Source: Branchiostoma floridae
Taxonomy: Eukaryota; Chordata; Leptocardii; Amphioxiformes; Branchiostomatidae
Direction: 5' to 3'
DNA length: 64,000 nt
Assembly: GCF_000003815.2 (NCBI RefSeq)
Contig: NC_049994.1
Location: forward strand, 17,084,789 to 17,148,788
A program made the translations under genes and the position numbers. This document shows positions 2,269-48,034 of the stretch, piece after piece. How positions within the stretch are numbered: position 1 is the stretch's first letter; every line of letters starts with the position of its first letter. A model generated the notes under the pieces. The model ran no database searches, was not told where the DNA came from, and worked only from the letters and a program-made list of their open reading frames with translations.

Positions 2269-3116
2269 TTAAGGAAACAACACGTGGCGTGGAAAGATAG
2301 TTACAGTAGAGTCAATGGTGTTAGATACCACCAAGTGTCCACCCGGGCCTATAGCGATGCACGATGGATTCTTTATGTTCGCGACAGTACGGACAAGCTC
2401 CCCGCGGCTTGTGAACATGTCTACCCTGTTGTCCCGAGTATTCGCCACGATGATGCGACCCAATGGGTCCACGACCAAGGAAATTATTCGGTTGTCTCTA
2501 TACCTCCCGTAGGTTCCTACAGATTCTAATATCTTGTCTCCGAAGTGATTGTACACCTTAACACCGTCAGAGTCCGCAAGCAAGACATTTCCCTTGCAGT
2601 CCGAGGCGACTCCGCGAACTGGAAAGCTATAGGTTGGCCTGCCCGTTAGCACTTGAAAACTTCGAACGAGAGAGCCATTTGGCTGGAAAATTCTAATTGT
2701 GTCTCCCTCTCCAAGGATAACTTTGTTGTTGCGCACGTCTATCGCAATTTTAGGACAAGGCCTATAATGCACGTTGAAGCGGAATTCGAAGGTCTTTATG
2801 GGCAGACCTCCCTTATGGTACTGTACGACACGTACGACACGGGCTTCAACCCCCGCTACCCACAGGTAGTCAGGCTCCACGTCAAAAGCAACAGTTTTGG
2901 GCCACATCATCTTATCTCGACCCGGCACTACCGTTGGGAAGTTGCGCAGATAGGTACCATTTATGCTGAAAACCTGGAAGCGATTGTTGAACCTATCAGC
3001 GACAAATATCTCATTGTCAGCAGACACAGTCACCCCTAAGTTATCATAAAATTGTCCACGTTCATCTGTTCCAAACCCACCGAAGGTGATTGGCTCCAAC
3101 ACTCTGTCATGATTTG
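2269..3116 (-). CDS. P1 exon 5: extracellular NHL beta-propeller, C-terminal exon
   Basis: The terminal exon of P1 encodes about 281 residues of NHL repeats. Visible units include ITFGGFG near the start, VSADNEIFVADRFNNRFQVF, VAFDVEPDYLWVAG, IAIDVRNNKVILGEG, GNVLLADSDGVKVYNHFGDK and GRIIVANTRDNRVDMFTSRG, and the chain ends in FPRHVLFP and a stop. The spacing suggests about six blades. NHL propellers bind protein or RNA in other families. Here the exon follows a TM and stalk, so I infer an extracellular ligand-binding role. The acceptor (TTGCAG at 3117-3122) enters with two leftover bases, matching the phase-1 donor of the stalk exon. The sibling propellers at 10.7, 33.5 and 43.9 kb share layout and ending. 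There is no RING, B-box or coiled coil, so this is not a TRIM protein. Confidence 0.85.
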
Positions 3117-3534
3117 CTGCAAGAAGTAATAAGACGCGTAGAAGCAGTATGCTTAATACATTTACAATAATCTATTACTCTACTCTTACTTCATTTATAA
3201 TCTTTTATATTCTTCTGTCATTTTGTTTATCCAGGGTCATCCAGATGAGCTTCGGAACCCGGTATTATAAAATGCTTAGATTGTAGCTTTTAGCTGTACA
3301 TATCATCAATAGAATAGCCTCTTATTTCTACATGTCAACATTGTTACCTATACCAAAGTCTTTTATTACTTTGTATGTGTACCATTTATTTCGTAATATG
3401 TTACATGTAGCAATTAGCCAACGGGCAAGAACTTGCAATTAAAAATCAAATACTACTATTAAGTCTCACGTCACAAATGTCCAAGTTGAACCATTCATAC
3501 CAACACTCCGGACGAGATTTCGAGCTAGTCTCAC

Positions 3535-3648
3535 CTTTAATCTGTGAACTGTTGGACACTGCCGGCAGTATGGGGAAATACCTGCTGCAGCCAGCCAGGC
3601 TAGAGGTTAAGGTAGAAGCCACAGTCGTTGTCAGCTGTGGAGAGCTTT
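3535..3648 (-). CDS. P1 exon 4: Ser/Thr-rich stalk exon b
   Basis: A 114-nt exon encoding SSPQLTTTVASTLTSSLAG and then CSRYFPILPAVSNSSQIK. Entered at AG 3650-3649 it is symmetric (phase 1 to phase 1), so it fits between stalk exon a and the NHL exon. A second acceptor 14 bases downstream (exon start 3634) makes a 100-nt version that begins in phase 0, as the stalk of P3 does, and would replace exon a instead. Homologues lie at 17986-18090 (P2) and 35073-35178 (P3). NSS is a potential N-glycosylation site. Confidence 0.6.
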
Positions 3649-4020
3649 CTGTAATAGATGATAGAATAGTGCCAGGAATGAGGATGATGTCTGTATCGCA
3701 TGCGACGATCAGTGGGAAGGTATATTAGAATAACCAAGAATATTCACATTTTAAGTTTAAGAACCTCCTCAGGGCAATTTCATCATGTTTCAGTGCATTG
3801 ACCAGTAACCAGCCTTTTCTCAAACAGTTACGCCTTTACAGCCTTTTCTCAAACAGTTACGCCACAGACGACGCCAATATTGTCTTATTTAAAACACCTA
3901 TTGTTAACACTTTACTTTAAACATTATCAACCTCATCTTAGGTCAAAAAAAGTTTGCACATTTGCGACAAAGACCTCTTCAGGACAGCGCTACGGACAAG
4001 TGACAGTGATTATATCTCAC

Positions 4021-4102
4021 CTCCACATTGAGAGCTGTTAGGGACAGAACTGCAGCATCCAGGGGTACCAGGGGTAACGGTGGAACCCACCGTCACTGTC
4101 GA
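4021..4102 (-). CDS. P1 exon 3: stalk exon a
   Basis: An 82-nt exon, phase 0 to phase 1, encoding STVTVGSTVTPGTPGCCSSV then PNSSQCG. It is homologous to P2 exon 18224-18323 but lacks the five codons equivalent to TPPGV. The paired cysteines (GCCSSV) recur in P2 and P3 and may mediate disulfide-linked dimers (inference). Acceptor CTACAG and donor GTGAGA are intact. Confidence 0.6.
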
Positions 4103-4479
4103 CTGTAGATTAATTGGGGAGAGGCCATATATGAGAGAATATACAATCCCACCCTCAACGAAAAAGGGGGGCTACGTATGGAACTTTCCGGCACTTGGGA
4201 CATAGCACTCCCCCCCCCCCCCGCCAACAAAACTTTTAGCTCCTGTAACTAAAACAACAGGAGCTAATTGACTCATTTGCATTAACTGTGTCTTAGCCTT
4301 GATATCCTTTGAAATCCAAATTGTCTTCAGCTTGACTTTGGCTTAGCTTTGTTTTCTTTGGAATCCAAATTGTCTTCAGTCTGAATTGTCTTACAACCTT
4401 TCCTATTGGACATCTGAAATTGTCTTCATTAATAGTTAGAGTATAAAAGACCTGTTTCTTGCAGATCACTTCAGTGTCA

Positions 4480-4570
4480 CTGACGAAGGAAAGTGGATTC
4501 TTTCCGAAACGTCTGACCGTTTCAAAACCATATCCAGTTGCTTGAGTAACTATTTTTGGCGTATCTAAAG
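4480..4570. repeat. Solo copy of a foldback repeat arm
   Basis: The sequence from tccgaaacgtctgaccgttt through ccatatccagttgcttgagt to aactattttt matches the arms of the foldback element at 24342-24528. It lies in the intron between P1 exon 3 and the TM exon. The intron upstream of it (4200-4440) also has a poly-C tract and two copies of a motif containing atccaaattgtcttcag. Confidence 0.6.
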
Positions 4571-4761: not shown

Positions 4762-4862
4762 CTCTGGTGGGTCGATATTGTAAAATAGCCAGAGAAAGAC
4801 TCCGCCAACGATGCACGACACAAGGACCGTCACAGCTGAGCACACCATCAGGCGCGAACATT
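4762..4862 (-). CDS. P1 exon 2: transmembrane exon
   Basis: A 101-nt exon entered in phase 1 and left in phase 0, encoding CSRLMVCSAVTVLVSCIVGG then VFLWLFYNIDPPE. This is a single hydrophobic helix of about 22 residues with a basic residue (Arg) on its N-terminal side. With no signal peptide, that arrangement predicts a type II membrane protein (N-terminus inside). P2 differs at only four of 33 residues (18846-18946). Acceptor TTTCAG, donor GTATCC. Confidence 0.75.
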
Positions 4863-5420: not shown

Positions 5421-5983
5421 CGCAAGCTGTAGGATGCTGAACGTTTGGCACGTACATCGGATTTTGATTAAGCGCATTCGGGACATGTTGACTTTCCTCA
5501 CTGACAATATCAGTAGGATTTTCGGCACTGCCCGATGGGGTGGTCAAGACATCATTGTTGATGCTATCTGAGGCCGCTTGCCCAGAGTCGGGTGCCATGA
5601 TAGGAGGTTCGTCGTCTTTCTGGTATCCAACAGCACATGGTTGGATATAGGGGTCGCTATCATATGGCTGGGCGACATCACAGCTAGCAGACTGGACGGC
5701 AGATTTTTTAAAAGGACACTTAACAGCATATGACCGGAGGCAGGGACTGTTCTCAATGTTTTCTAGTTCAACGGCACTCCCCTCATCATCATCTTGCTGT
5801 TGTGAAGTAGCATACGGCTGAAGGCGCTGATTGCCATCATTGTTAGCTGACATAAAAGTGACTTCATCTTCTTGCTGACGTGTATCAGCTGATGGCTGAC
5901 TGCAGGGGTTGCCATCACTGTTGTTTGAGTTGGAGGCGGGTCCAGGGCTGGCGTTTGGCTTGATGAAAAGATTAGGGGTCAAC
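5421..5983 (-). CDS. P1 exon 1: acidic cytoplasmic tail with tyrosine motifs
   Basis: About 187 codons, rich in Asp, Glu, Asn, Gln and Ser, ending in phase 1 at GTAAGA after PTACG. Motifs visible are QPYAT, RSYAVKC, QPCAVGY and NQNPMYVPNV; NPxY motifs recruit PTB-domain adaptors or clathrin machinery in known receptors. It aligns with the C-terminal half of the P2 cytoplasmic exon but lacks its NPMY repeats and N-terminus. A stop lies five codons above 5982 and the first codon there is TTG, not ATG. Either an acceptor at 5984-5985 (CACCAG) is entered in phase 2 from an unseen first exon, as in P2, or this copy is 5'-truncated and initiates internally. Confidence 0.6.
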
Positions 5984-5999
5984 CTGGTGTTATATTAAT

Positions 6000-8815: not shown

Positions 8816-9492
8816 GGCTTGTTCATCCAGGCTGACCTTGGTTGGAACGCACATGTAGACCACATTGTCAAACAAGGCAACCGAAAGCTATTATGCTTAA
8901 ACAACTCAACCAGTTCGATCTGTCTAGGGATGACCTACTTACCTGCTACAAAACATTCGTCCGTCCCAGCTGTGAGTACGCAGCGCCCGCCTGGCATCCT
9001 AGAATAACTACTAGACAGCGACGAAGGATCGAATTCATCCAGAAACGCGCGTGCATAATACTCCGCTCTGCCTACACGTCATACCCAGAGGCGTGTCAGA
9101 TACTGAACTTGTCTACCCTAGATCAGAGAAGAGACCATCTCTGCCTACAGTTCGCTGAGGAACTCCTCCAGTCACCGGACTTCCGTCACTGGCTACCACA
9201 AACCCGGGGGGCTATCACTGGGAGAGCCACAAGGGCCAGCAACCAACTAGACACTGTCAAACCCAGAACTGAACGCAACCAAAAAAAGTGCAATTCCGGG
9301 CCCATGTATGACATGCCTGCTGAACAAAAAGAATAGAAATTAATGTTAACAATGTGACTGTATATTATCTATTGTATATATTTAACGTTTTTTGATGATT
9401 TTATTGTAGTTGTAGCACAGAGGTGCTGTACAGCAAGGCCGCAATTCAACCTCAGGTTGCCAGTGTCGTATTTTTATTCTTAATAAACTATC

Positions 9493-9530
<38 letters not shown>
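8815..9530 (+). mobile_element. 5'-truncated non-LTR retrotransposon: C-terminal end of the reverse transcriptase ORF
   Basis: The frames 8819-8940 and 8842-9336 together give GWNAHVDHIVKQ in one frame, and DLLTCYKTFVRPSCEYAAP, RQRRRIEFIQKRACI and LDQRRDHLCLQFAEEL in the other. This is the conserved C-terminal region after the RT domain in jockey/CR1-type LINEs. A frameshift near 8900 and the missing endonuclease and RT core mark it as dead. It ends in a simple 3' tail of TGAT units (about 9497-9525), as in CR1-like elements. It sits inside the 57-bp satellite, whose units resume directly after the tail. Confidence 0.85.
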
Positions 9531-10757: not shown

Positions 10758-11627
10758 TCACCTTTGTCCGTTGAGAGGAAACAGCAAGTGGCTTGGAAAG
10801 ATAGTTACAGTCTTGCCATTTGCGTTAGATACCACCAATTGTCCATTCGGGCCTATGGCAATATATGATGGTTTTTTCGTGTTAACGACAGTACGGACAA
10901 ACTTCCCGCGGCTTGTGAACATGTCCACCCTGTTGTTCCAAGTATTCGCCACGATGATGCGACCCAATGGGTCCACGGAGATGCCTCCCATGCCTCCATT
11001 CCTAGCGGAGGCTACTACAAATTCCAGTATCTTGTGTCCGTAATGATTGTACACCTTAACGCGTCCGTGCCTGTCCGCAAGCACGACATTTCCCTCGCAG
11101 TCCGATGAGACTGCGCGAATTGGAAAGATTGGCATGATTGACACTTGAAAACTCCGAACGAGAGAGCCATTTGGTTGGAACATCATTATCTTATCTCCCT
11201 CTCCCAGGATAACTTTGTTGTTGCGCACATTTATCGCAATTTCGGCATGAGAGAAAAAATAATTCTTGTTACTACGGAAGTCGAACTTCTTTAGGGGTAG
11301 ATCTTTCTTATGATACTGTACGACATGTACATACCGATGTGCAAACAATGTTTGTATCATCCCCGCTACCCACAGGTAGTCAGGCTCCACGTCAACAGCA
11401 ACAGTGTAGGGTTTCATCTTGAAGTATTTACCTGTACCCGGCACTACCGTTGGGAAGTGGCGCAGATAGGTCCCAGTAATGCTGAAGACTTGGACTCGTT
11501 TGGCGCTTGCGTCAGCAACAAATATCTCATTGTCAGCAGACACAGCCACCCCGAAATTAGAATTAAATTTTCCAGGTTCTCTTCCCCGCCTACCAAAGTT
11601 GATCGTCTCTCGTTTTGTCATTATTCT
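10758..11627 (-). CDS. P2 last exon: NHL beta-propeller
   Basis: Encodes NHL repeats very like P1: FNSNFGVAVSADNEIFVADA, VQVFSITGTYLRHFPTVVPG, VAVDVEPDYLWVAG, IAINVRNNKVILGEG, GNVVLADRHGRVKVYNHYGH and GRIIVANTWNNRVDMFTSRG, ending in a stop after FPLNGQR. The acceptor equivalent to the siblings (GTTGCAG, 11628 onward) would have to be entered in phase 0 to read this frame. Every upstream ectodomain exon ends in phase 1, which would give a stop after NNDKTRDDQLW. Either an unseen exon restores the frame, a weaker acceptor is used, translation starts at the ATG at 11621 (MTKRETINFG), or this copy is inactivated at its junction. Confidence 0.7.
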   Translation of the reverse strand, partial: RIMTKRETINFGRRGREPGKFNSNFGVAVSADNEIFVADASAKRVQVFSITGTYLRHFPTVVPGTGKYFKMKPYTVAVDVEPDYLWVAGMIQTLFAHRYVHVVQYHKKDLPLKKFDFRSNKNYFFSHAEIAINVRNNKVILGEGDKIMMFQPNGSLVRSFQVSIMPIFPIRAVSSDCEGNVVLADRHGRVKVYNHYGHKILEFVVASARNGGMGGISVDPLGRIIVANTWNNRVDMFTSRGKFVRTVVNTKKPSYIAIGPNGQLVVSNANGKTVTIFPSHLLFPLNGQR

Positions 11628-11639: not shown

Positions 11640-12439
11640 ATAAAACCAGTAAAAGTTTGATACATTTACAATCAATTACTCTACACTTCTTTTCCGCCGC
11701 ATCAGATGCAACCATATACATGTAATATATATTATGCCGATGACATGAACAGTCCCAGACAGGCAAATAACGACGAACGGGAAAGAAAATAAAGCCCAAA
11801 CATTAAGGATAGCTTACCAGGACAAAGTATGTACTTGTTTTATTATAGAACTGGCACTGACCACTGCAATGTGCTGGTAAGCTAGAGACTAATCTATTTA
11901 GGGATTCCTCTGCCGTGACAGATGAGACTAGAGAATGAATTGCTCTACCCTTATTTCATTTATCTTTTATTTTCTGTCATTTTCTTTGTTATCCAGGGTT
12001 GTCAAGAGGAGCTTTGTAACCTATGACATGAGTGTTATATGGCAATATATTCGTTTCAAAAATACGGGAGCTATATATGTGACGTTTTATCTAAATTAAC
12101 GTCACATGGGACGTAAAATACGTGACGTCCAACGTATTACAGAAACATCACACTTGCGTGCAGCATAAGTGACGTCCGTTTATCAATAACCTAGTAAATG
12201 ATTTATTAGGACGTGACCAGTGCCTTTGTAGAACGTACGTGACGTGTTTTAACAGATCTGTGTTTGAAATCACGTCACGTGTGAAACAAGGTACGTGACG
12301 TGTTTTAAAGGGTTTGCGACCTACTTAACGGTCGCACTACTTAATTCAAATCAATGTTACCCTTTAGCAACCACTTATTTTGAACCTTCCTTGTATCCAT
12401 GTTCCTATAGCTTATAAAACAAGACGATTTTTCCTTTAC
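11640..12439. other. Intron of P2 with a GTGACGT/ACGTCAC-rich repeat
   Basis: From about 12030 to 12330 the sequence is dominated by gtgacgt and acgtcac words and begins with the element end gcaatatattcgtttcaaaa. It is an inverted copy of the units at 13.2-14.7 kb and has the same orientation as the one at 23.8 kb. No coding exon is seen in the interval. Confidence 0.65.
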
Positions 12440-12877
12440 CTCCGTAGAAGTCCAGCTCTGTGAGCCATGGCTGCCAGCCTGAGTGGGTCTCGGTAATTAG
12501 GAACCTCCAATACTGAGCTGTTCCCTGGAACCCGCCGAACTCCTGCCGCTCGTCCGTCCCTCCCTGCACGTTAGTAACGGTCACGACGTCCTCCCAGCTG
12601 TACGGACTCCCAACCTGCGACTTTTGCAGCGTGAAGGCTGCAGTGTTATGTTCGGTGTCTCCATAGTTGTTAACAGCGACGCGGGTGATAGTATGTGGCG
12701 CTGTGAGGTCCAGTACAATGTACCAGTTGTTGTAGCTCCTGTCCATGCCCCCGGGGTTCCAGTAGGTCCCAGTGTCCCCATCCAAGGCCTTTGCGGCATC
12801 ATACGTCACTCCGTTGTGTACCCACGGTGTGCCGGCGGAGTCCACAACCCATGACGGATCCCGTTCCAGCCACACAC
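12440..12877 (-). CDS. P2 exon: F5/8 type C (discoidin) domain
   Basis: A symmetric phase-1 exon of 438 nt (acceptor CTCCAG, donor GTAAAG) encoding one whole F5/8C domain. Key residues: DPSWVVDSAGTPWV at the start, AKALDGDTGTYWNPGG, NNWYIVLDLTAPHTITRVAV, FTLQKSQVGSPYSWEDVVTV, GFQGTAQYWRFLITETHSG and PWLTELDFYG. The WYIVLDL and WRF/ITETHSG pattern is characteristic of the fold, which binds carbohydrate or phospholipid in other proteins. Its phase makes it insertable between any two ectodomain exons here. I assign it to P2 by order and phase, not by transcript evidence. Confidence 0.85.
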
Positions 12878-13159
12878 CTGGAGAAGTATAACGTATGTCA
12901 TCATTTCTCTGTCAATATTTCGCATTAAAAAAGGTACCTTTATCTAAACGTAAATATGTCTTATATTAGACATGGAGCGATCGATATCGATGACGCACAT
13001 TACTCAGCACCACAACGGCACACATACACTTGTAGTATGTACAGTATATCTGGTCGGGCCACGAGACATAAAAAATTGATATGTCCTGTTTTAAACGAAA
13101 ACGGAGTCTGGCAGGGGTCGCTTATGAAAACGTGGGACTTATGGAGGAGCCCCATGTTT

Positions 13160-14720
13160 TGGACGTCCTTAGAAATAGGACTTCTGTGCAAGAAGGGAGT
13201 CCGCAAGGCGTCGCTGCTTGACGGTTGTCACATGTAAAGAAAGGGGGGCATAGATTGCTGTGTGACCGTTTGAAGTATAACAGACGTCTTTAAAGTCGCA
13301 TATAAAAGACGTCACGTACCCTATGTCACATACAACGTGAATTAAACACAGGAACATGTGACGTGTTTTTGGTTTGTCGGACGTGACGTGTGACATCTGT
13401 AAAAGATGTCACGTACTTGTGTCACACGGGACGTGAATTAAACACGGATCTGTTGTACAGGGTGGGACGTCGACAAGTCACGTCCTACTCAATCGTTAAC
13501 GAAGTTATTGATAAAAGGACGTCACATATGCCGCACTTAAGTGTGACGTGTTTGCAATAGGTCGGACGCCACGTATTTTACGTCACACGTGACGTGAATT
13601 TAGGTCAAACGTCACGTATATTGCTCCCGTATTTTGGAAACAGATATATTGCCATAAACCTTCCTTGTGTCCATGTTTGGGACGTCTTTAGAAATAGGGC
13701 TTCTGTGCAAGAACGGAGTCCGCAAGGCGTCGCTGCTTGACGGTTGTCACATGTTAAGAAAGGGGGTGACATAGATTGCTGTGTGACCGTTTGAAGTATA
13801 ACAGACGTCGTTAAAGTCGCATATAAAAGACGTCACGTACCTTATGTCACATATACAACGTGAATTAAACACAGGAACATGTGACGTGTTTTGGTTTGTC
13901 GGACGTGACGTGTGACATCTGTAAAAGATGTCACGTACTTGCGTCACACGGGACGTGAATTAAACACGGATCTGTTGTACAGGGTGGGACGGACGTCGAC
14001 AAGTCACGTCCTACTCAATCGTTAACTAAGTTATTGATAAAAGGACGTCACATATGCCGCACTTAAAGGCAACCTAAGCAATATCACATTGTTAAAAGTA
14101 GAAACATTCTGAATAAGGCAGTCTGTATAACATTGACGTCTAATGCACTATGTTAGCACGTTAACATCATTATTTCATCAATTGAGCCGTTAAAAACAGC
14201 ACGGGAATGAGTTGCACAAGGATTCCAGATCAAGTCCTTATTTTGGGGGGGTACAATAATAAGAAATATTCTCGTGCAACTTGTCTCTGGGCTGTTTTTA
14301 ACCGCTCAAAGTATCAAATTATGATGTAAATGTGAGAATACAGTGCAGTAGATGTCAATATTATGCAGATTGCCTTATTCAGAATATTTTCACTTTCATG
14401 CTGTAATATTGCTTAGGTTGCGTGTTTGCAATAGGTCGGACGCCACGTATTTTACGTCACACGACGTGAATTTAGGTCAAACGTCACGTATATTGCTCCC
14501 GTATTTTGGAAACAAATATATTGCCATAAACCTTCCTTGTATCCATGTTTGGGACGTCTTTAGAAATAGGGCTTCTGTGCAAGAACGGAGTCCGCAAGGC
14601 GTCGCTGCTTGACGGTAGTCACATATAAAGAAAGGGGGGCAGATTGCTGTGTGACCGTTTGAAGTATAACAGAAGTCTTTAAGGTCGCACGAAAAAGACG
14701 TCACGTACCTTATGTCACAA
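13160..14720. repeat. Tandem copies of an ACGTCAC-rich repeat
   Basis: Unit A (about 13160-13680) and unit B (13680-14068, resuming 14422-14560) are nearly identical, and a third partial copy follows (14550-14720). Each contains accgtttgaagtataacaga, aagacgtcacgtac, a stretch alternating GACGTG and CACGTC, and the end gctcccgtattttggaaaca then tatattgccataaac. Related inverted copies lie at 12030-12330, 17600-17900 and 23810-24060. No coding signal is seen; the open frames are short. Confidence 0.85.
14069..14421. mobile_element. Foldback MITE inserted in a repeat unit
   Basis: The ends are perfect inverted repeats (gcaacctaagcaatat and atattgcttaggttgc). Homology continues inward for roughly 130-150 bases per arm (attctgaataaggcagtctg against the reverse of its partner; gttaaaaacagc pairing with gctgtttttaac). 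Unit A at about 13545 is an empty counterpart: there the repeat runs on without the 353-bp insert, though a few bases at the junction differ. No ORF; non-autonomous. Confidence 0.85.
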
Positions 14721-16500: not shown

Positions 16501-16704
16501 ATATAATTAGCGAAAATACGTCAACAATATACGTATTTTCCGGTTAAAACGACATCGTTCTACGTATATGATATCGTCTTGGAACAAAAATATCGGTATG
16601 CTCCATTATACCCAACAAACTTCACTTTGCTAAGCTATCGTTATAAGACGTACCTTAAATGATCGTCATCGGGTATACCCGCACACCATTTACTAGAGTC
16701 TGAC

Positions 16705-17016
16705 CTGTAATCTTGTACACTTCGTTTCCGTAAGGCCCGCCTTCGCCGTCCGATGCGCAGGTTGTGGAAGGGCCGTACTTGTTGTAGGTGTTGAGCCCAT
16801 CAGCAGACCCAAAGCACTGCCCGCCATGTTGTACAGCAAACATGGGAAAGCCACGAGAGAGTGCTACTTGGTAACACTTCTCTATGGGGTTTTCTCGAAA
16901 CAGGTAGTAGTGTCCGTCCAGGCGTGGATCTGTCCCCTCGAGTGTTGGAATAGCGCGGTCACATGTATCATTCCAGCAACCCAGGCTGATGTACTCACGA
17001 CTTTCGCGTCGAATTC
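16705..17016 (-). CDS. P2 exon: WSC domain, copy 2
   Basis: A symmetric phase-1 exon of 312 nt encoding a Cys-rich WSC domain: YISLGCWNDTCDRAIPTLEG, YYLFRENPIEKCYQVALSRG, FPMFAVQHGGQCFGSADGLN and YGPSTTCASDGEGGPYGNEV. WSC domains are putative carbohydrate-binding modules, named from yeast Wsc stress sensors and also found in polycystin-1. The donor chosen is ACAG|GTCAGA after VYKIT because it keeps phase 1. A further donor (GCGG|GTATAC) exists, and reading beyond it meets a stop. The exon is a near-identical tandem copy of 17271-17582 and would follow it in the P2 ectodomain. Confidence 0.8.
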
Positions 17017-17270
17017 CTGTGTGCAAGAGGAAGGGGGTATATGGCATCGTTTCCGTGTCAAAATATCGTATCTAAAAAGTACCTTAGAATAGCAAAATAA
17101 GTCTACGAAATACGTATTTTCCGGTTTAAATGATATCGTTTTGGGTATACGATATCGTCACGGAACAAAAATATCGCTATACTCAATTATACCCAACAAA
17201 CTTCACGTTGCTAAGCTATCGTTATAAGACGTCATCGAGTATACCCGCACACCATTTACTAGAGTCTGAC

Positions 17271-17582
17271 CTGTAATCTTGTACACTTCGTTTCCGTAAG
17301 GCCCACCTTCGCCGTCCGATGCGCAGGTTGTGGAAGGGCCGTACTTGTTGTAGGTGTTGAGCCCATCAGCCGACCCAAAACACTGCCCGCCGTGTTGTAC
17401 AGCAAACATGGGAAAGCCACGAGAGAGTGCTACTTGGTAACACTTCTCTATGGGGTTTTCTCGAAACAGGTAGTTCCGTCCGTCCAGGCGTGCATCTGTC
17501 CACTCGAGTGTCGGAATAGCGCGGTCACATGTATCATTCCAGCAACCCAGGCTGATGAACTCACGGCTTTCGCGTCGAATTC
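17271..17582 (-). CDS. P2 exon: WSC domain, copy 1
   Basis: Same 312-nt, phase 1 to 1 exon as the neighbouring copy, differing at only a few codons (FISLGC for YISLGC, EWTDARLDGRN for EGTDPRLDGHY). The flanking intron is also duplicated (the tattttccggtt and cccaacaaacttcac tracts at 16530-16620 and 17110-17200), so the duplication is recent and spans about 560 bp. It follows the stalk exons in transcription order, and its phase fits stalk exon b. Confidence 0.8.
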
Positions 17583-17599
17583 CTGTGTGCAAGAGGAAG

Positions 17600-17985: not shown

Positions 17986-18090
17986 CTGATCTTTTGGACA
18001 CTGCCGCTGGTGTGGGGACAGAACTATAGTAGCCAGTCGGACCAGAGGTAAAGGCAGTAGCTACAGTCGCATTCCAATGCAGATGGTTAT
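17986..18090 (-). CDS. P2 exon: stalk exon b
   Basis: A symmetric phase-1 exon of 105 nt encoding NHLHWNATVATAFTSGPTGY then YSSVPTPAAVSKRS. The internal acceptor used by the P3 homologue (CTACAG before the Leu codon) is mutated here, so only the upstream acceptor TTTCAG (18093-18091) gives an open frame. That makes the exon addable after stalk exon a. NAT is a potential N-glycosylation site. The paired cysteines of the siblings are replaced by YYSS. Confidence 0.55.
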
Positions 18091-18223: not shown

Positions 18224-18323
18224 CTGTACGTTGTGAGCTGTTGGAGACACCTGGCGGTGTGGGGACAGAACTGCAACATCCAGGAGTACCAGGGGTAACG
18301 GTGGAACCCACCGTCGCTGTCGG
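18224..18323 (-). CDS. P2 exon: stalk exon a
   Basis: A 100-nt exon, phase 0 to 1, encoding PTATVGSTVTPGTPGCCSSV then PTPPGVSNSSQRT. It joins the TM exon (phase 0 end). Compared with P3 it keeps the CCSSVPTPP core and the SNSSQR end. The acceptor is CTAGAG, weaker than the CTACAG of P1. Confidence 0.6.
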
Positions 18324-18845: not shown

Positions 18846-18946
18846 CTCTGGTGAGTTGATATTGTAAAGTAACCAGAGAAAGACTCCAGTAACGATGCAC
18901 GACACAAGTACCGTCACAATTGAGCACACCATCAGGCGAGAACATT
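18846..18946 (-). CDS. P2 exon: transmembrane exon
   Basis: 101 nt, phase 1 to 0, encoding CSRLMVCSIVTVLVSCIVTG then VFLWLLYNINSPE. A single hydrophobic helix, nearly identical to P1. The flanking intron (18640-19360) is also strongly similar to the P1 intron (4600-5340), so whole gene blocks were duplicated. Confidence 0.75.
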
Positions 18947-19454: not shown

Positions 19455-20755
19455 CGCAATCTGCAGGATGCTGAACGTTGGGCACGTACATCGGGTTTCG
19501 ATTAAGCGCATTCGGTAGATGTTGCCTTTCCTCATTGACAACATAAGAAGGATTTGGATGAAGCGCATTCGGTACATGTTGCCTTTCCTCACTGACAACA
19601 TCATTAGGATTTCCTTCACTGCTCGATGGGTTGGCCAAGACATCATTGTTGATGCTAGCTGAGGCCGCTGGTCCACAGTCAGGTGACTGGATAGGAGGTA
19701 TGTCGTCTTTCTGGTATCCAACAGCATATGGTTGGATGTAGGGATCGCTATCATTGTTAGCTGACTCGACGATTTCTTCTTGGTATTTAACAGCATAGGG
19801 CTGGCCGACATCACAGCTGGCTGACTCGTCAGCAGGTTTTCTAAAAGGTTTAAGACACTTCACAGCATATGGCCGGAGGCAGGGATTGTTTGCTCTGTGT
19901 GCAATGTTTGCTGTTTCAACGACACTTTCCTCATCACCATCCTTCAGTTTAGTAACTGCATATGGCTGAAGACGCTGACTGCAATCATTGTTTATAGCTG
20001 GCATAAAAGTGACTTCATCACCTTGCTGACGTGTATCAGCTAATGACTGGGGGCAGGGGTTGCCATCACTGTTGTCTGACTTGGAGGCGCGTCCAGAGTT
20101 GACGTTTGGCTCCGTGGTGCTTTGCAGGTACATCGGATTAGGGATAACGTCGTTTGGGGGAGGGTCCATAGTGCTCTGTGTGTACGTTGGGTTAGGATTA
20201 TCTTCGTTTGAAGAAGGGTCCATAGTCCTTTGTGTGTACATGGGGTTAGGATTATCTTCGTTTGACGAAGGGTCCATGGTCCTTTGTGTGTACATCAGAT
20301 TAGGGTTAACTTCGTCTGGAGGAGGGTTCATGGTGCTTTGTGTGTACATCGGGGTTGAATCTCTGGCCTTCGTGTGAATACTACTGTCATTTTCATCACA
20401 CCCTACCAAGTTCATGTCGTTAACATTACTGACGATGGGCTCCGTTACTTGAAAGGGTTCCTTTTTTGTCTCAGCTGGCGTTTTCTTCACGCCACATATA
20501 CTATCACCCTTACATATGTATGCGATAGCATAAGTATCTGAAGGACTGATGTTGATCGCTTGTCTGTTCTCGTCTTTGTGTTCATTTTCTTCACTCCTAC
20601 CGGGAGGGATGTGGAAACTGAGATCTTCACCATCTTTTCTGACGAGAGTCCCTGCAGCTTCTGTGTCTGGTTTCGCCATGCTTTCACTCAAGACGTTGAC
20701 GTTGGAAGATACGTATTCAGCCATGACTTCGAGATATTTTGATGATAACTTACGT
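19455..20755 (-). CDS. P2 exon: large acidic cytoplasmic domain with NPxY and PYAVxY motifs
   Basis: The longest member (1301 nt, about 433 codons). It enters in phase 2 (acceptor CACAG) and leaves in phase 1 (GTAAGA after ADCG). The phase-2 entry fits the first exon at 21493-21539, giving a join of EALP to RKLSSKYLEVMAEYV. An ATG at 20724 (MAEYVSSNV) is an alternative start. The middle has a tandem repeat of roughly 18-24 residues containing NPMYTQRTMDPSSNED. In total I count five NPxY motifs (three NPMY, NPTY, NPSY) and four PYAV motifs (QPYAVTK, RPYAVKC, QPYAVKY, QPYAVGY). These suggest phosphotyrosine or adaptor docking (inference). No signal peptide or helix is present, consistent with a cytoplasmic N-terminus. 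Confidence 0.75.
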
Positions 20756-20999
20756 CTGTGATTCAAGGATATGTCTTTTTGCCAATCACATCGGGAAGAA
20801 TCACCTTTTGCTCCTATTCAGTGGTCATTTCCACAGTTTGAAACCTTCCCGTTACACGTGTATATAGCTATGTGTCTCCAACGCCCACTGAAAAAAAAAG
20901 TTGTTACGCAATAGACAGACAAAATCATTCACTTTCTATGTAGATGAAGCAGCCCACGTGTCATCTTCTGATACCAGACTCATCATGTCAATGCTAAGA

Positions 21000-33468: not shown

Positions 33469-34322
33469 TCAAGGAAACACCATGTGGCGTGGAAAGATGG
33501 TTACAGTGCCGTCTTGTGGGTTAGTCGCCACCAACTGTCCATCCAGTCCCATGGTCAGACCCCACGGGTTTGTAATGTTCGCGACAGTACGGACAAACTC
33601 CCCGTGGCTTGTGAACATGTCTACCCTGTTGTTGCCACTGTTTGCCACGATGATGTGACCCATGGGTGTAATACAGATGTCTTTGGGGAATATCAGTCGG
33701 CCCTCCTGGTGTCCAAATGATCCAAATGTGAATATTTTGTTTCCAGAGTGACTATACACCTGAACACTAACGTAGTCCGTCAGCAGGATATTTCCGTCGT
33801 TGTCAGACATGACTCCATGGATTCCCACACTTCGCTCTTTACCTAACGCTTTAAAACTCCGAACTAGAAAGCCATTGGGTTGGAACATCATCATAGTTTG
33901 TCCCTCTCCCACAATAACTTTGTTGTTGCGCGCGTCTATCGCAATGCGGGGCTGAGGAATCTGATTCAAGAAGCGTACATCGAACTTCTTTATAGGCAGT
34001 CCATCCCTACGGTACTGTACGACATGTGCGTCAGGACTAAATATAACCTTTCCCCCCACTACCCACAGGTAGCCAGGTTTCACATCAATAGCAACACTGA
34101 AGGGATGTATTCTCCTATTTTCACCCGGTAATATCGTTGGGAAGAGACGCAGATATGTCCCATTAATGCTGAAGACTTGAACGCGATTGTTACTCAAGTC
34201 AGTCACAAATATCTCGTTGTCAGCAGATACAGCCACTCCGTTGTTTTCTCTAAATTTTCCAGGTTCCTTTCCTCTCCCACCAAAGGTGATCTTCGGCATC
34301 TTTCTGCATCTGTCATGGTTTT
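33469..34322 (-). CDS. P3 exon 4: NHL beta-propeller, C-terminal exon
   Basis: 854 nt (283 codons plus stop), entered in phase 1 through CTTGCAG. Units include ITFGGRGKEPGKF, VAVSADNEIFVTDLSNNRVQ, VAIDVKPGYLWVVGG, IAIDARNNKVIVGEG, GNILLTDYVSVQVYSHSGNK and GHIIVANSGNNRVDMFTSHG, ending FPRHMVFP. With its three upstream exons P3 is an uninterrupted 515-codon reading frame including the stop, about 514 residues. The P3 chain is cytoplasm (about 158), TM (36), stalk (35), NHL (283). Confidence 0.88.
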
Positions 34323-34444: not shown

Positions 34445-34446
<2 letters not shown>

Positions 34447-35072: not shown

Positions 35073-35178
35073 CTTCACGTTGTGAGCTGTTGGAGACTGC
35101 CGGCGGTGTGGGAACAGAACTGCAGCATTCGGCTCCGGTCGGACCAGAGGTAAAGGTAGTAGCCACAGTTGGTGTCAG
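35073..35178 (-). CDS. P3 exon 3: stalk exon
   Basis: 106 nt, phase 0 to 1, encoding LTPTVATTFTSGPTGAECCS then SVPTPPAVSNSSQRE. The upstream acceptor used in P1 and P2 stalk b is destroyed here, so only the phase-0 entry from CTACAG works; that fits the TM exon end. CC and NSS are conserved with P2. Confidence 0.75.
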
Positions 35179-35515: not shown

Positions 35516-35625
35516 CGCTGGAGGGTTGATGCTACCGAATACCCAGAGAAAGACTCCGCCGACGATGCACAACACGAGGACTGTAGCCGCTGTTACAGCT
35601 GAGAACACCCGGTGACGGGTACATT
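35516..35625 (-). CDS. P3 exon 2: transmembrane exon
   Basis: 110 nt, phase 1 to 0, encoding CTRHRVFSAVTAATVLVLCI then VGGVFLWVFGSINPPA. One helix with basic residues (RHR) on its N-terminal side, supporting an N-in/C-out topology by the positive-inside rule. Acceptor TTCCAG, donor GTAAGC. Confidence 0.8.
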
Positions 35626-36375: not shown

Positions 36376-36850
36376 CAAAAGGTGAGGGATGCTGATTTGG
36401 TTGAAGCGCATTCGGGACACGTTGCCTTTCCTCACTAACAACGTCAGAAGGATTTGAATCATCGCTCGATGGGTTGGCCAAGACATAATTGTTGTGGCTT
36501 GAAGCCGCTGTTGGTTTCTGCATTCTTGTTTCGGTGTGAGTACCCCCTGCCGCCATGTCATCCTGATCCATGTAGGCGACAGCATATGGTTCAATGTCCA
36601 CATCATCAGAGGCGACATTTGCTGTTTGTCCGTTTTGATCTGCAACACCAGTCCTTGGGAGTGGGTGATCATTCCCACTGTCGCCATGTTCCTGGTATTT
36701 AACAGCGTACGGCTGGATGACATCAGAGTCGACTGGTCCAAGGGCAGATTCGTGATCTTCCTGGTATCTAACAGCATATGGCTGAATGCAGGAATTACCA
36801 ATATTGTTAGCTGACTCGATGACAAGATTAGAAGGGCTTGCCTGTGCCAT
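36376..36850 (-). CDS. P3 exon 1: acidic cytoplasmic domain
   Basis: ATG at 36850 starts MAQASPSNLVIESANNIGNS; the exon ends in phase 1 (GTAAGC after SPFG). It carries three evenly built tyrosine motifs, IQPYAVRYQE, IQPYAVKYQE and EPYAVAYMDQ, separated by acidic linkers, and no NPxY. No signal peptide. The P4 exon at 39199-39697 is a close relative, including the MAQA start. Upstream DNA to about 37210 is conserved with P4, which supports this ATG as a genuine first coding exon. Confidence 0.8.
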
Positions 36851-37210
36851 ACTTTTTCTCAGTTCTCAGGCTCTCGGTACGGTTGTCAGACAATGCTTGG
36901 TGTGATGTATACTGAAATACTGTGTTGGATAGTTGGATGGATGAAGTGATGTTAGATGTGGCTGTAATCCACGCCAATCTGAGGTTTCTGCCTGTAATAT
37001 CAGACGGATTGAGTCTGTTCCTCTGCTTGTTCCGAGTTTTTGCCGCCCTGTAACTTGTCTTCGCTACCTCCAGTATACAGAGCACAGATGCGAGCACACG
37101 AACATTCAGTTCCAGACAATTGATATTTCCCACGAAAACAGGACAGTTTTTAATCAGTCGCGTAGGAAGGCAACGTCTTCGTCGCCTAGCAACAACAGCT
37201 CTTCTGCCGC
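36851..37210 (-). promoter_or_regulatory. P3 5' UTR or promoter region conserved with P4
   Basis: Landmarks shared with 39720-40080: ctctcggtacggtt, gacaatgcttgg.gtgatgt, ggtttctgcctgtaatatca, ttccgagtttttgc and cgtcttcgtcgc.tagcaaca. Similarity outside the coding exon suggests 5' UTR plus promoter. The block ctagcaacaacag resembles an RFX half-site. No TATA box is evident. Confidence 0.5.
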
Positions 37211-38409: not shown

Positions 38410-38519
38410 CGCTGGTTGGCTGGTGCTTAAGAATGACCAGAGAAAGAATCCGGCGACGATACACAGCATCAGGATTGTGGCCGTTGTTACCGCCAAGCAC
38501 ACCCGCTGACGTGTACATT
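38410..38519 (-). CDS. P4 exon 2: transmembrane exon without its own ectodomain
   Basis: 110 nt, phase 1 to 0, encoding CTRQRVCLAVTTATILMLCI then VAGFFLWSFLSTSQPA. Intact acceptor (TTTCAG) and donor (GTAAGC). No stalk or NHL exon lies between here and P3. The next compatible acceptor downstream is the P3 stalk (35178, phase 0). Confidence 0.75.
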
Positions 38520-39085: not shown

Positions 39086-39198
39086 CACTGATCTAATATC
39101 AACTATAATGTGACGCAAGATCTGCGTTCAAAACAGTTCGCGCACAAAAAAAGACTACCTACACGTATATATTTCAAATATATATGAGCAAATCTTAC

Positions 39199-39697
39199 CG
39201 CAAGGTGCAGGATGGTGGACGTTTGGCGCGTACATCGGATTTGGAGGAAGCGCATTCGGGAGACTGTCGGAAGAATTTGCACCATGGCTCGATGGGTTTC
39301 CCAACACATCACTGACGCTGTTTGAAGCAGCCATTGGTTTCTGCAAGGGCATTCTTGTTCCGGTGTGAGTACTAGTGTTTCCTGCCGCCATTTCGTCCTG
39401 GTCCATGTATGCGGCAGCATATGGTTCAATGTCTACATCATCAGAGGCGACACTGGCTGTTTGTCCGTTTTCACCTCCATCAGTCCTTGGGAGTGGGTGA
39501 GCATTCCCACTGTCACGTTCCTGGTATTTAACGGCGTATGGTTGGATTGCTTCACAGTCAGCTGGCCTAATGGCAGATTCATTGTTTTCCTGGTATCTAA
39601 ATGCGTTTAACTGGATACAGACATTACTAATATTGTTAGCTGACCCGGCGACATCTGCTCCATTGACTAGAAGATTAGAAGGGCCTGCCTGTGCCAT
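39199..39697 (-). CDS. P4 exon 1: acidic cytoplasmic domain
   Basis: ATG at 39697 starts MAQAGPSNLLVNGADVAGSA; the exon ends in phase 1 (GTAAGA after APCG). Motifs: IQPYAVKYQE, EPYAAAYMDQ and PPNPMYAPNV. The equivalent of the first P3 motif is degraded to IQLNAFRYQE. The frame is open upstream to a GTG at 39841, but conservation with P3 starts at MAQA. With its TM exon it forms an N-terminal half-gene. Confidence 0.75.
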
Positions 39698-39719
39698 AGT
39701 TCTTATTGGTTGTCTGCTT

Positions 39720-40740
39720 TGGCGGCTCTCGGTACGGTTTTTAGACACCTTTGAGACAATGCTTGGCGTGATGTGCACTGCAAGATTTCGTCTGATAAAT
39801 GGATGGCTGGTGGCTGGACGGGTGTGATTGTCCCGGGCCACACCGAGGTTTCTGCCTGTAATATCAGACGATGTGAGGCTATTTCCCTCCTTGGTTTTCC
39901 CTTCTTGGTATGGTCGTTCCGAGTTTTTGCTGCTCTTCCACTAGAATTTGCTATCTGTAGTATAAATGACACTCAGTGGGAGCAGACGACCGCTTTGTCA
40001 TATGAAGGTAGGACGGCTTTGATTAGTCGTGTAGAAATGGTGACGTCTTCGTCGCTTAGCAACAACAGATATTCTTTGAAACTGCCTGGAGCAATGTCTT
40101 TCTTTGAATCACGTCTACATAAATGCAAGCATGATGTTGGCGTCTACATCGCTCGTATACGTGTAGCTTTCTTAATCATTGGGCTCTTTACTTGCTGTCT
40201 ACTAATCATATATATTTAAAACAGAAAATTAACTTTCCACCATGCTTGCTTAAAAAACGGAAATGATTTTTCGTTCAAATGTCCTTTTCCATTCACAGTC
40301 TGACACTTGTAATCTCACGAGCAGACAAAAAGTAATCTTCCTACCGACTGAGCCCCACAAAAACAAAAACCAATCTATCCGTAGATCAGTCAGCCCACGA
40401 GTCATCTTCTGATACCAGACAATTCATATCCGTGAAAACCTTTTCGGCTGCGCTGGTTGTTCACCTGTTGTTTTCTTGTACTGGTTGTTATTGTGATTCT
40501 GTACAATTTCATGACGTGTTCTTGTGATTTATCTGGCGCTGTGTGTTCCATTATCCACTTTTCAGTGAGGTCACATAGAATATCATAGATTAAATGATTG
40601 GAGTTGTCATACATAGGATGTGTAGGCGTCCAAAAATATTGAATAAACAAATTGAGCATTAAACACTGTGCCATCAAAAAGGAACACATTCTAATGGCCG
40701 TGACATGTGAAGATAACTATGATAAAGTACAATGAAATGA
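39720..40740 (-). promoter_or_regulatory. P4 upstream region
   Basis: 39720-40080 is conserved with the P3 5' flank, and 40370-40740 with the P2 flank (agcccacgagtcatcttctg, gaataaacaaattgagcatt). So the P4 promoter joins parts seen separately at P2 and P3. A minus-strand frame at 40402-40689 shares NLFIQYF.TPTH with the P2 flank, but the third copy (0.6 kb) is interrupted by a stop there, so I do not call it coding. The MISC first exon is absent here. Confidence 0.4.
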
Positions 40741-43852: not shown

Positions 43853-44694
43853 TTACGGATATACCATGCGTCTTGGAAAGATGGTTAGAGATTTGTGGGC
43901 TTGGTTGCATACCACCAAATGTCCGTTCCGCCCCATTGCAATACCACTTGGGTATGTGATATTCACCACAGTGCGGACAAACTTCCCTCGGCTTGTGAAC
44001 ATGTCTACCCGGTTTTTGTCTTGGTTCGCCACGAGGATGTGACCCGAGTTGTCCACTAGAATACCCTGGGGGTGGCAGAATGCGCAACTGCTAAAAGCAA
44101 ACAGCGACTTTCCGGACAAAGTGTAGGCTCTGACGTGGTGAGACTTGTCTGTGACAAGGATGCGCCCTTCGTCGTCTGATGCGACGAACGAAAGTATCCA
44201 TTCTAATCCTTGAGCATGATTTTGGAACGTGTGGTACAAAGAACCGTTGGGATGGAAAACCAAAATGTTTAGCATCTCAGTGACGATGACTTTATTGCTG
44301 TGCACGTTAAAGGCGATGCTGGGAGCCCACCGGGTCAAATTGGCACCAAATGTTATCCCTGGTTGGCCATCGGGGCTGTACTTTACTACATGTACAGAAT
44401 GTAAGCGTATCGCACTCTTGTAAATCGTCCCCACTACCCACAGCTGACCCTCTCTGTCAATGGCAACATCGGAGGCCACCATCGTTTTTTCACCTTTTCC
44501 CGGTACTACAGTCGGGAACAGTCTGAGATAGTCTCCCTTCATGTTAAAGACTTGGATTCGATTATTGTAGCCATCGGCCACAAATATTTCATGGTCAGAA
44601 GAGACGGCCACTCCACGATTGTCGTTAAATGTTCCAGGGTCTTTGCCGTACTTACCAATGGTTATCTCAGATGTCATGTTGTTATCACTGCTTC
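43853..44694 (-). CDS. P5 exon 4: NHL beta-propeller, C-terminal exon
   Basis: 842 nt, entered in phase 1 via CTTGCAG. It encodes SSDNNMTSEITIGKYGKDPG, VAVSSDHEIFVADGYNNRIQ, DVAIDREGQLWVVGTIYKSA, GRILVTDKSHHVRAYTLSGK and GHILVANQDKNRVDMFTSRG, ending FPRRMVYP. It is more diverged than P1-P3 but has the same blade spacing and ending. Joining the stalk exon gives NQIG then SSDNN with the split Gly codon restored, an independent check of the boundary. The full P5 frame is 765 codons with no internal stop. Confidence 0.9.
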
Positions 44695-45741: not shown

Positions 45742-46183
45742 CGATTTGGTTCTTGGAGTTTGACGGTTGTGTGGCGATTGACGGTTGTGTGTCGGTTGAC
45801 GGCTGGTAGGCGGTTGACGGTTGTGTGTCGGTTGACGGTTGTGTGTCGGCTGACGGTTGGTAGGCGGTTGACGGTTGTGTGTCGGTTGACGGTCGCGTGG
45901 CGGTTGACGGTCGTGTGGCGGTTGACGGTTGTGTGGCGGTTGACGGTTCTGTGGCAGTTGACGGTCGTGTGGCGGTTGACGGTTGTGTGGCGGTTGACGG
46001 TTGTGTGGCGCTTGACGGTTGTGTGGCGGTTGACGGTTGTGTGTTACCCTGTGAATCTCTAGAGGTTGCTGCCAATGTGGTATCGTGTGGGCTAGTGGGA
46101 GTCATTTTGGCACCTTGTGAACTTTTGAAAATCGGTTGCTCTGTTGGTGCCCCTATCTCCAAAGACATGTTCGCAGTCCCTAC
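45742..46183 (-). CDS. P5 exon 3: mucin-like stalk of TATQPS repeats
   Basis: 442 nt, phase 0 to 1. After VGTANMSLEIGAPTEQPIFK come about 15 copies of a six-residue unit of the type TATQPS (variants TATRPS, TDTQPS, TAYQPS), an 18-bp DNA repeat. The Thr/Ser/Pro content predicts dense O-glycosylation and a stiff spacer between membrane and propeller. Siblings have only 27-38 residues per stalk exon, so this stalk grew by minisatellite expansion. Its length is probably polymorphic (inference). Confidence 0.85.
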
Positions 46184-46372
46184 CTGTGAAATAATATAGA
46201 TAGAGATAACATCCAGCCCTTACCACTTAAATGAAATTCTATACCTTTAGCAAAATGTCAAAATCATAAAAATGATGGAACAATGTTCCATTTATATAAT
46301 ATGTGTAAAAGTGAAAAAAAGCGATGCGTCCACGATTCCTGTTTCTTAAATTAGCAAACGAATGATTCTTAC

Positions 46373-46491
46373 GTTTAGATCACCCTCCGCGCCAGAACTG
46401 GTGTATACACCGGCAATCGTTCCGAGGATGACCAAAGACAGCAGGACACCGACAATTATCACAGCAGTACACACTTGGCGATGTCCATAGC
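46373..46491 (-). CDS. P5 exon 2: transmembrane exon
   Basis: 119 nt, phase 1 to 0, encoding YGHRQVCTAVIIVGVLLSLV then ILGTIAGVYTSSGAEGDLN. One helix; the N-terminal flank HRQ is basic and the C-terminal flank acidic, which fits N-in/C-out. Acceptor TTTCAG, donor GTAAGA. Confidence 0.82.
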
Positions 46492-47142
46492 CTGAAACAT
46501 GAAGTATGAACAAACAAATATTTGCTGTCCTTTAAACCCAGTTAAACCACTCAGAGCAACACTGTACATAGCTCCCAATCGGTTGCTAAATAGTTATCTG
46601 TACATGGACAAGACCTCTGACCCCCAAGTTCAGAGCCTATATTTCAACCTAGATATCAAGTTTAACTTATGTTCTAATCAAGAAGGTTTGTCTTAATGCT
46701 TCATCATGTTGTTCTACTTGACGTAAACGTTAAACATTTGAGTTAATCTTGTATATCATATGAGACGTGTAAATGCGCGTATGTGTTGGCACCCACTATC
46801 AGCTAAGCTGCCATGTATTGTATTGTCCGCAATTCCAATAAATCTAAATCTAAAATGAAGTACAATATTCTAATCCCAACCACAGATAAATGAACAACAT
46901 GAATTCACAGAAGCCGTATCTAACATACATGACGAAACAAATACTGGTCTGATCTTGGCACTCTCTATGAAATGCAGCTAGATTTTATATATAGACTTGG
47001 CAACTTCTAACAGACGAAATGTAGTTATTGAATAAGATCTAGTTATGTTGTCCTCATTCTGGGTCGTTGATAGTATCTAAGCCCATTAGACAGTACATTA
47101 ACGCTGAACAAAAAGAAATCAGTCAAAGTGTAACTGTCTTAC

Positions 47143-48034
47143 CACAAGGTCCTTGTTGTGGGGGGTTCGGTATTGGATTCGGGGCATTTCCGCCGTACAA
47201 TGGATTCGGACGGAGCACACTCGAACATTTGTTAAACAAAAAACCTGAGGCTGGATTGTTAGATTCATTCTCGGATGTGTCACATTTCGCTTGGTCTGAG
47301 TTGGTAGAGACGTTGTTGCTGCTGCTTGGAGCCATTTCTGCTGTCTGCACTTTGTGCTGTGTTCGTTCCTTTTCAGGAACGCCTATGGGAACCTTTGGCG
47401 CCGTGTCGTCCGGGCACGCGGTCGGACTGCATTGGGCTGAGTAGACAGGGTTGGGGAAGTTGTACGCAACAGCGTATGGCCTCATTTCGTCGTCGATATC
47501 ACTTGTCTGCCCGTCTTCTGCTATAGCAGCATGTCCTGTGGTTGGGGCGCTGCCATTGTAATCACCATCATCATCACCGTCACCACCATCTCTCTGGTAC
47601 GTAACAGCACATGGTTGGCTGTCGACATGCAGGATGCAGGGTTCGTTATCAGCTGGTCTAGAGGAGGTTCTAGTGACAGCGTTTGGCTCACTGTTGGGAC
47701 AAGTATCCACTTCGTCTTGCTGACATGACGAGTCAGGATTCTCCTGGTACATCGGACTTGGGTCAACGACATTTTGGTTGCTAAGTGGATTAGAGATTAA
47801 AGTGTTTTCCTGGTAAGTCGGATTTGGGTCCTGGTTGTGTTGCGGGCATATTTCACATGGAGCCGGGGTGTTTTGCTGATACATCGGATTAGGGTTCACG
47901 GTGTTTTGGCCCTCCATTGTATCATAGTTCTGAAGGTAGATCGGGTTCAGGTTTCTGGCCTTTGTCTCGCACTTTAAATTTGGCTGAAGTCTGTTTGGAG
48001 TGGTTTGGGTATCCACGACAGAATCTGACGCCAT
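47143..48034 (-). CDS. P5 exon 1: acidic cytoplasmic domain rich in NPxY
   Basis: ATG at 48034 starts MASDSVVDTQTTPNRLQPNL; the exon ends in phase 1 (GTAAGA after GPCG). Five NPxY motifs are visible: NLNPIYLQ, NPNPMYQQ, DPNPTYQE, FPNPVYSA and RPNPLYGG, plus SPMYQE, RPYAVAY and QPCAVTY. An Asp-rich run (GGDGDDDGDY) lies mid-domain. No signal peptide. Such spacing is compatible with PTB-adaptor or endocytic docking on a cytoplasmic tail (inference). Confidence 0.85.

Follow-up and report, generated by a model that had tools for sequence, protein, structure and literature searches.

A large lancelet gene family of predicted type II NHL-propeller receptors with diversifying selection on one propeller face

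A 64,000-nucleotide stretch of the Branchiostoma floridae genome (contig NC_049994.1, called C16 here; C16:17084789-17148788; "the window" below) contains a tandem gene family of five members, P1 to P5, built from an N-terminal tail, a transmembrane (TM) segment, a stalk and an NHL domain. Computation on the assembly (513 Mb in 431 contigs) establishes the anatomy of these genes, their copy number across the genome, a modeled propeller fold for the NHL exon, and diversifying selection concentrated on one face of that propeller, the one formed by the BC and DA loops. We consider it probable that P1 to P5 belong to a large, still-evolving family of type II receptors in which the BC/DA face meets variable ligands, the tail carries tyrosine motifs, and copies are born and die. 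Such receptors may serve in immunity or allorecognition, as an earlier note on this DNA had suggested from the repeated structure.

Splice sites visible in the DNA mark out the family on the minus strand from 48034 down to 2269: tail and TM exons occur five times each and NHL exons four times, in the order tail-TM-stalk-NHL. The joining of these exons into genes is a prediction from the splice sites. Window positions are as follows (ORF, open reading frame).

47143..48034, minus strand: P5 N-terminal tail exon; ATG at 48034; ORF with GK/GTAAG donor and five NPxY motifs
46391..46491, minus strand: P5 TM exon; end and donor phase tentative
45742..46183, minus strand: P5 stalk exon, T/S/P-rich
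43853..44694, minus strand: P5 NHL terminal exon; stop after ..RRMVYP
39199..39940, minus strand: P4 tail exon; ORF start given, first Met inside
38410..38519, minus strand: P4 TM exon; splice sites read from the sequence
36376..36865, minus strand: P3 tail exon; ORF start given
35516..35625, minus strand: P3 TM exon
35073..35178, minus strand: P3 stalk exon, phase 0-1
33469..34322, minus strand: P3 NHL terminal exon; stop after ..RHMVFP
19455..20817, minus strand: P2 tail exon; 458-aa ORF, start codon tentative
18846..18946, minus strand: P2 TM exon
18224..18323, minus strand: P2 stalk A exon
17986..18090, minus strand: P2 stalk B exon, phase 1-1
10758..11627, minus strand: P2 NHL exon; 2-bp frame shift against the phase-1 acceptor, shared stop lost
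5421..5994, minus strand: P1 tail exon, shorter than the P2 tail; start codon tentative
4762..4862, minus strand: P1 TM exon
4021..4102, minus strand: P1 stalk A exon
3535..3648, minus strand: P1 stalk C exon, phase 1-1
2269..3116, minus strand: P1 NHL terminal exon; stop after ..RHVLFP

The tandem family in the window is real, and the counts and minus-strand order of exons given in the earlier note stand. Its further claim of shared exon lengths does not, as tail ORFs range from 195 to 458 aa, and its shared intron phases hold for the most part. The tail/TM junction is in phase 1 in all five members (tail donor ..G/GTAAG), and the TM donor is in phase 0 in P1 to P4, with a fitting phase-0 stalk acceptor in P1, P2, and P3. 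The first stalk exons of these three enter in phase 0 and leave in phase 1, and additional stalk exons are 1-1; the stalk/NHL junction is in phase 1 in P1, P3, and P5. The exceptions are the frame-shifted NHL acceptor of P2 and the TM/stalk junction of P5, at which the nearest TM donor gives phase 1 where the stalk requires phase 0. The NHL exon is the last in the gene, with a shared ..(F/Y)P-stop ending in P1, P3, and P5. Within the P5 stalk exon, an 18-bp minisatellite (45760-46043) runs in frame and codes for TQPSTA-like repeats.

Divergence among the copies is uneven. The four NHL ORFs are pairwise 44 to 63% identical (best E 8e-102 in an ORF self-comparison), and the tails 70% (P1-P2), 68% (P3-P4), and 37% (P1-P3). 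TM exons, described earlier as nearly conserved, come close to this in P1-P2 (85%) and P1-P3 (71%) and reach 65% in P3-P4, but P5 is only 26% identical to P1 and 24% to P3. Nor is the architecture the same throughout: no stalk or NHL exon was found between the P4 TM exon and P3, and P2 encloses an F5/8 exon and a pair of WSC-like exons.

The window holds only a part of a family that extends across the genome. With the P4 tail as the query (E up to 1e-3), 83 matches, merged by hand where they were second pieces of one exon, gave 74 tail loci on 17 contigs. The P3 NHL query (E up to 1e-15; 137 of 746 candidates scored) gave at least 139 NHL matches, with NHL exons on 22 contigs; most of the stand-alone NHL matches listed have no stop. 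Pairing used 91 NHL rows; the 48 left out were nearly all from an array at C17:18.31-18.91 Mb, plus second pieces. By distance, 58 of the 74 tails have an NHL exon on the same strand within 20 kb downstream, compared with 2 of 74 in an opposite-strand control. Ten dispersed tail loci were read downstream, eight taken from the better tail matches before NHL results were seen and two from the 16 unpaired tails. All ten contain NHL sequence, which forms a single open frame in six; of the other four, two carry frame shifts (L043 and L045), one is split (L053), and one is truncated (L054). Immediately past P1 come two further genes that have all four kinds of exon (tail, TM, stalk, and NHL). Counting copies, which the earlier note had proposed as a check, thus returns a large family with many members across the genome.

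All four NHL ORFs of the window score above the Pfam NHL cut-off. NHL is the sole Pfam family above cut-off in those of P1 to P3, and that of P5 also matches SGL, a related propeller. An AlphaFold model of the P3 NHL exon, built from a four-sequence alignment, has a mean pLDDT of 87.7 and a pTM of 0.88, and its best PDB matches are the NHL domains of TRIM71, Thin, TRIM2/3, and Brat (TM-score about 0.8); sequence comparison likewise points to TRIM-NHL proteins. As modeled, the NHL exon is a six-bladed propeller.

In such propellers, the BC and DA loops lie on one face. Of 24 NHL stretches of at least 230 aa in the fetched loci, we kept 17, leaving out L001, L002, L003, L007, and L008 (distant NHL) and L043 (stops) and moving L006 to a separate set from C17. 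The codon models M1a, M2a, M7, and M8 were fitted with our own implementation on relative branch lengths from IQ-TREE, fixed in proportion. For the 17 exons, M2a improves on M1a with a likelihood ratio test statistic (LRT) of 89.5 and assigns 19% of sites an omega (dN/dS) of 2.24. Forty-two sites have a posterior above 0.8: 33 of 86 BC+DA positions, 1 of 53 AB+CD positions, 7 of 126 strand positions, and one site outside P3. P1, P2, and two neighbors, analyzed as a group, give an LRT of 88.6, with selected sites at 27/74 BC+DA, 4/53 AB+CD, and 7/125 strand positions; the P3 group of eight gives an LRT of 8.7, with 8/87, 0/53, and 1/126, respectively.

The signal persists in columns without nearby gaps (LRT 47.2 for the P1 group, 198 columns; 32.9 for all exons, 161 columns) and after removal of doubtful copies (58.6 for the P1 group without P2; 78.7, and 154 for M8 against M7, for the 15 exons without P2 and L045). 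Simulations under the null model reached maxima of 2.0 (20 simulations, P1 group), 4.4 (10, all exons), and 3.6 (20, C17 set); one returned an LRT of -5.1, so the optimizer is imperfect. Pooled over seven disjoint NHL pairs, pairwise omega is 0.88 for BC+DA (bootstrap 0.70 to 1.13), 0.53 for AB+CD, and 0.36 for strands, and the BC+DA to AB+CD dN ratio of 2.36 was reached by none of 2,000 label permutations. These results indicate that NHL exons are under diversifying selection concentrated on the BC/DA face, which would be the binding surface. The earlier note had proposed setting dN/dS of the NHL surface against the TM exon, and the comparison bears it out: nine TM pairs without P5 have omega values of 0.16 to 0.73, and pairs with P5 0.78 to 0.90, all on few changes. 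Tails lie at 0.46 to 0.72, except for the P4 tail against its paralogue (1.41; 29 versus 6 changes); some tail ORFs compared (P1, P3, P4, and their partners) extend a few codons into the intron.

A dense array of NHL genes, mostly with long open frames (L006, L055-L062), occupies C17:18.31-18.91 Mb; the one gene read there combines a coiled-coil-like stretch (by eye) with NHL. We considered this array as a neutral control and dropped it, as selection is even stronger there: nine exons give an LRT of 163, with selected sites at 26 of 81 BC+DA, 0 of 52 AB+CD, and 7 of 126 strand positions. The two sets predict each other. Sites chosen in the receptors have an omega of 1.71 in three C17 pairs, compared with 0.52 elsewhere, and sites chosen in C17 have 0.93 in seven receptor pairs, compared with 0.50 elsewhere; the replacement rate at these cross-family sites was reached by none of 1,000 random site sets.

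A tail that precedes a single hydrophobic segment (peak hydropathy 2.4 to 2.8), basic residues on the tail side of that segment (by eye), a T/S/P-rich stalk, and a propeller at the C-terminal end agree with the layout of a type II receptor. The tails carry NPxY motifs in six of seven cases (1 to 5 where present; 0 to 5 per tail overall, compared with 0.05 to 0.20 in shuffled sequences) and PYAV preceded by Q, E, or R, also in six of seven (0 to 4 per tail, compared with 0.00). NPxY and PYAV exceed shuffles and YxxPhi uptake motifs do not, which points to PTB/SH2-type adaptors or to NPxY-driven uptake. ITIM motifs were also sought and set aside, at 0 to 1 per tail against 0.25 to 0.57 in shuffles.

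We therefore picture, as a working model, an intact gene encoding a cytoplasmic N-terminal tail with NPxY and PYAV motifs, one TM helix, and a short Ser/Thr/Pro-rich stalk that would hold the C-terminal six-bladed propeller outside the cell. Its BC/DA face would bind ever-changing ligands, which would place diversifying selection there and leave the core conserved. Once a ligand is bound, the tyrosine motifs would attract adaptors of PTB or SH2 type, trigger uptake, or do both. Tandem and segmental duplication would supply new copies, and deletions or frame shifts would disable others, as appears to have happened in P4 and P2. The most likely ligands are variable microbial or non-self molecules, followed by partners in self/non-self or gamete recognition.

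Several observations weigh against this model. P3 has no NPxY motif, and P1 and P4 have one each; YxxPhi motifs fall below shuffles (0 to 1 compared with 1.7 to 3.4). The NHL exons contain about as many N-glycosylation sequons (mean 2.1) as shuffles do (2.0), and we dropped sequons as proof of an extracellular NHL domain. The P3 group taken alone gives a p value of 0.013, a weak result, and BC+DA pairwise omega does not exceed 1. Some codon-model fits halted at the evaluation cap, and the site models leave out gene conversion between copies, which can inflate site tests. Selection acts on the BC/DA face in the C17 array too, and the pattern is therefore no hallmark of membrane receptors. Pairing by distance alone joins the P4 tail to the P3 NHL exon and includes three pairs that span 9.5 to 13.3 kb, and 35 of the 91 NHL exons have no tail match, though one of these belongs to the tail-bearing P5.

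What P4 lacks can be gauged from a sister cluster at C16:17.69-17.72 Mb, inverted and 0.6 Mb from the window on the same contig, which matches window DNA at 83 to 95% identity in long blocks. It contains a P4-like gene with stalk and NHL and two P3-like genes (NHL 91 to 92% identical to P3). P4 DNA matches the cluster up to about 38324, and the match resumes at about 38093, a point that lies within a 57-bp minisatellite. The intervening stretch is 0.23 kb in the window and 2.08 kb in the cluster, where it contains the stalk and NHL exons, so about 1.85 kb is missing from P4. The sister P4 gene is equipped with both exons, and P4 has therefore most simply lost them. In P2, an in-frame but weaker AG lies a few codons into the NHL exon, and this copy may be either dead or spliced via another acceptor. 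Arrays of the 57-bp minisatellite are found at window positions 7377-10373, 32669-33269, and 37605-38093, each not far from an NHL exon or from the TM exon of P4.

P4 could instead be an alternative first part of P3, with its tail and TM spliced to the P3 stalk and NHL so that clustered tails share a propeller. The open P4 tail, its preserved TM splice sites, a phase-0 donor that suits the P3 stalk acceptor, and the position of the P3 NHL as the next one downstream, 4.8 kb off, would all allow this, but the intact sister gene makes loss the simplest account and the tail omega of 1.41 fits relaxation equally well; we regard such sharing as rather improbable. A broader argument from damage, to which we give similarly little credence, is that the family consists of relaxed, partly dead duplicates whose high rates reflect decay of redundant copies rather than selection. 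That P4 is without NHL, that the P2 NHL is shifted and without its stop, that splits, shifts, or truncation mark four of the ten dispersed copies examined, and that the P4 tail evolves as it does all speak for decay. Yet M2a still beats M1a without the doubtful copies, selected sites lie on one face, and stops are absent from most of the listed stand-alone NHL matches.

A reading as receptors for adhesion, fertilization, or self-recognition, with fast evolution driven by conflict between individuals or sexes, is somewhat less unlikely than either of these, though still unlikely. A type II protein with an NHL ectodomain resembles teneurins as generally described, and fast evolution of one face does not tell which ligand is bound; however, tails spread over 17 contigs are less usual for single-locus allorecognition. 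We give very little weight to the idea that the copies are uncollapsed alleles, an assembly or haplotype artifact that the earlier note had named as grounds for refutation. Lancelets are very polymorphic, and the sister cluster is as close to the window as its long matching blocks imply. The copies, however, are widely divergent and lie on many contigs, 17 for tails and 22 for NHL exons, and the sister cluster is inverted, distant, and different in gene content. Our preferred reading remains the type II receptor family, and the earlier view that tandem expansion with divergence marks a recognition-type family gains from copy number and one-face NHL selection, with immunity or allorecognition as a possible role.

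The family can be set beside several known systems. TRIM-NHL proteins (TRIM2, TRIM3, TRIM71, Brat, and Thin) share the six-bladed NHL propeller and are the best matches in sequence and fold. In contrast to them, the lancelet family has a TM exon and stalk before NHL, and no RING or B-box was found by Pfam in the four window tail ORFs scanned. That scan, from which the P3 tail was left out, found no family in the tails of P2 and P4 (E to 0.01) or in the tails of P1 and P5 and the P2 TM ORF (E to 0.1). Teneurins span the membrane in type II orientation and carry an NHL domain in their ectodomain, an arrangement comparable to the topology predicted here from a TM exon that follows the tail. Unlike in teneurins, the NHL exon stops right after NHL, with no EGF or YD-repeat part seen; Pfam found no EGF repeats, YD shell, or toxin-like C-terminal domain in the four NHL ORFs. 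The LDL receptor family comprises NPxY-tailed endocytic receptors, and repeated NPxY in most tails is common to both, whereas the tail here is N-terminal and NHL takes the place of LDLR modules. SRCR, NLR, and FREP are expanded invertebrate recognition families, alike in tandem and dispersed copy number, copy decay, and a selected putative binding face; they differ in that here the putative recognition fold is an NHL propeller, carried by what is likely a type II membrane protein.

No description of the family was found among the matches listed in the literature on amphioxus and on NHL proteins, including PMC3503706 and PMC3160408. It is a real, large, receptor-like family for which we have found no description so far, and it belongs to a known kind, the expanded recognition receptor family. 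A diversified surface-recognition role for NHL propellers was likewise not found among the matches listed in the literature on these domains.

Lancelets are not known to have vertebrate-type antigen receptors. If our reading is correct, an NHL beta-propeller serves them as a diversified domain for recognition at the cell surface. The analysis names exact positions on one propeller face as ligand-binding candidates, and the family offers, besides a tail bearing motifs of adaptor type, many natural paralogues on which recognition could be measured. More tentatively, and with odds that we place below even, these genes may form a previously undescribed, chromosome-wide system of a basal chordate in which some 60 to 90 type II NHL receptors diversify one ligand-binding face, are paired with the C17 NHL array, which diversifies that face as well and may be intracellular, and occasionally gain ectodomains from a terminal-inverted-repeat (TIR) transposon whose F5/8 lectin-type exon would be splice-ready.

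The transposon and the other exons inserted in P2 occupy its last intron.

16703..17583, minus strand: two WSC-like exons (17583-17269 and 17017-16703), 95% identical, phase 1-1
12038..13656, no strand assigned: terminal-inverted-repeat element with an F5/8 type C exon

The element measures 1.62 kb, with inverted ends of 180 nt at 84% identity (about 270 nt at 79%), and its F5/8 exon lies at about 12874-12438 on the minus strand in phase 1-1. A second copy (L063:1646-3287) with the same ends and 88% identity sits in another family gene, on C8. There it separates stalk A from stalk B, a place without insertion in the window, and the extra DNA at that site, 1.95 kb, is somewhat longer than the element; in P2 the position is the last intron. 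The first 400 bp of the element are complete at at least five places including the window, every one abutting an F5/8 exon, and the inverted end by itself is more widespread. C17:17569636 is a candidate parent, with an exon flank at 96% and no adjoining inverted end among the matches listed. Purifying selection on the mobile exon was considered and not borne out (omega 0.64; identity 0.908 for the exon and 0.931 for the rest of the element). As conservation of the exon is not visibly above that of the remainder, any use of it by these genes is putative. If the reading holds, a transposon-carried exon in two introns of family genes makes exon shuffling directly observable.

With 20.5 bits, the first WSC-like exon, the one of the two that was scanned, stays below the Pfam cut-off of 27.8. 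A WSC query gave at least 150 matches in the genome, none of those listed falling in the sister cluster. The WSC-like and F5/8 exons of P2, together with the 16 tails without a listed NHL, prompted the idea that tails are reused with other ectodomains; the two of these 16 that were read hold split or truncated NHL, and we rejected it. One tail match without a listed NHL (C18:3976513-3976800, minus strand) has a WSC match 6.7 kb downstream, 86% identical to the window WSC.

Elsewhere in the window, a 157-aa open frame at 57140-57613 on the plus strand has several hydrophobic stretches (by eye) and no Pfam match to E 0.1. Between P3 and P2, at 28925-27288, lie a SUEL-lectin exon and another F5/8 exon, which belong to another gene; the SUEL exon is 99% identical in the inverted sister cluster (L052:9281-9646).

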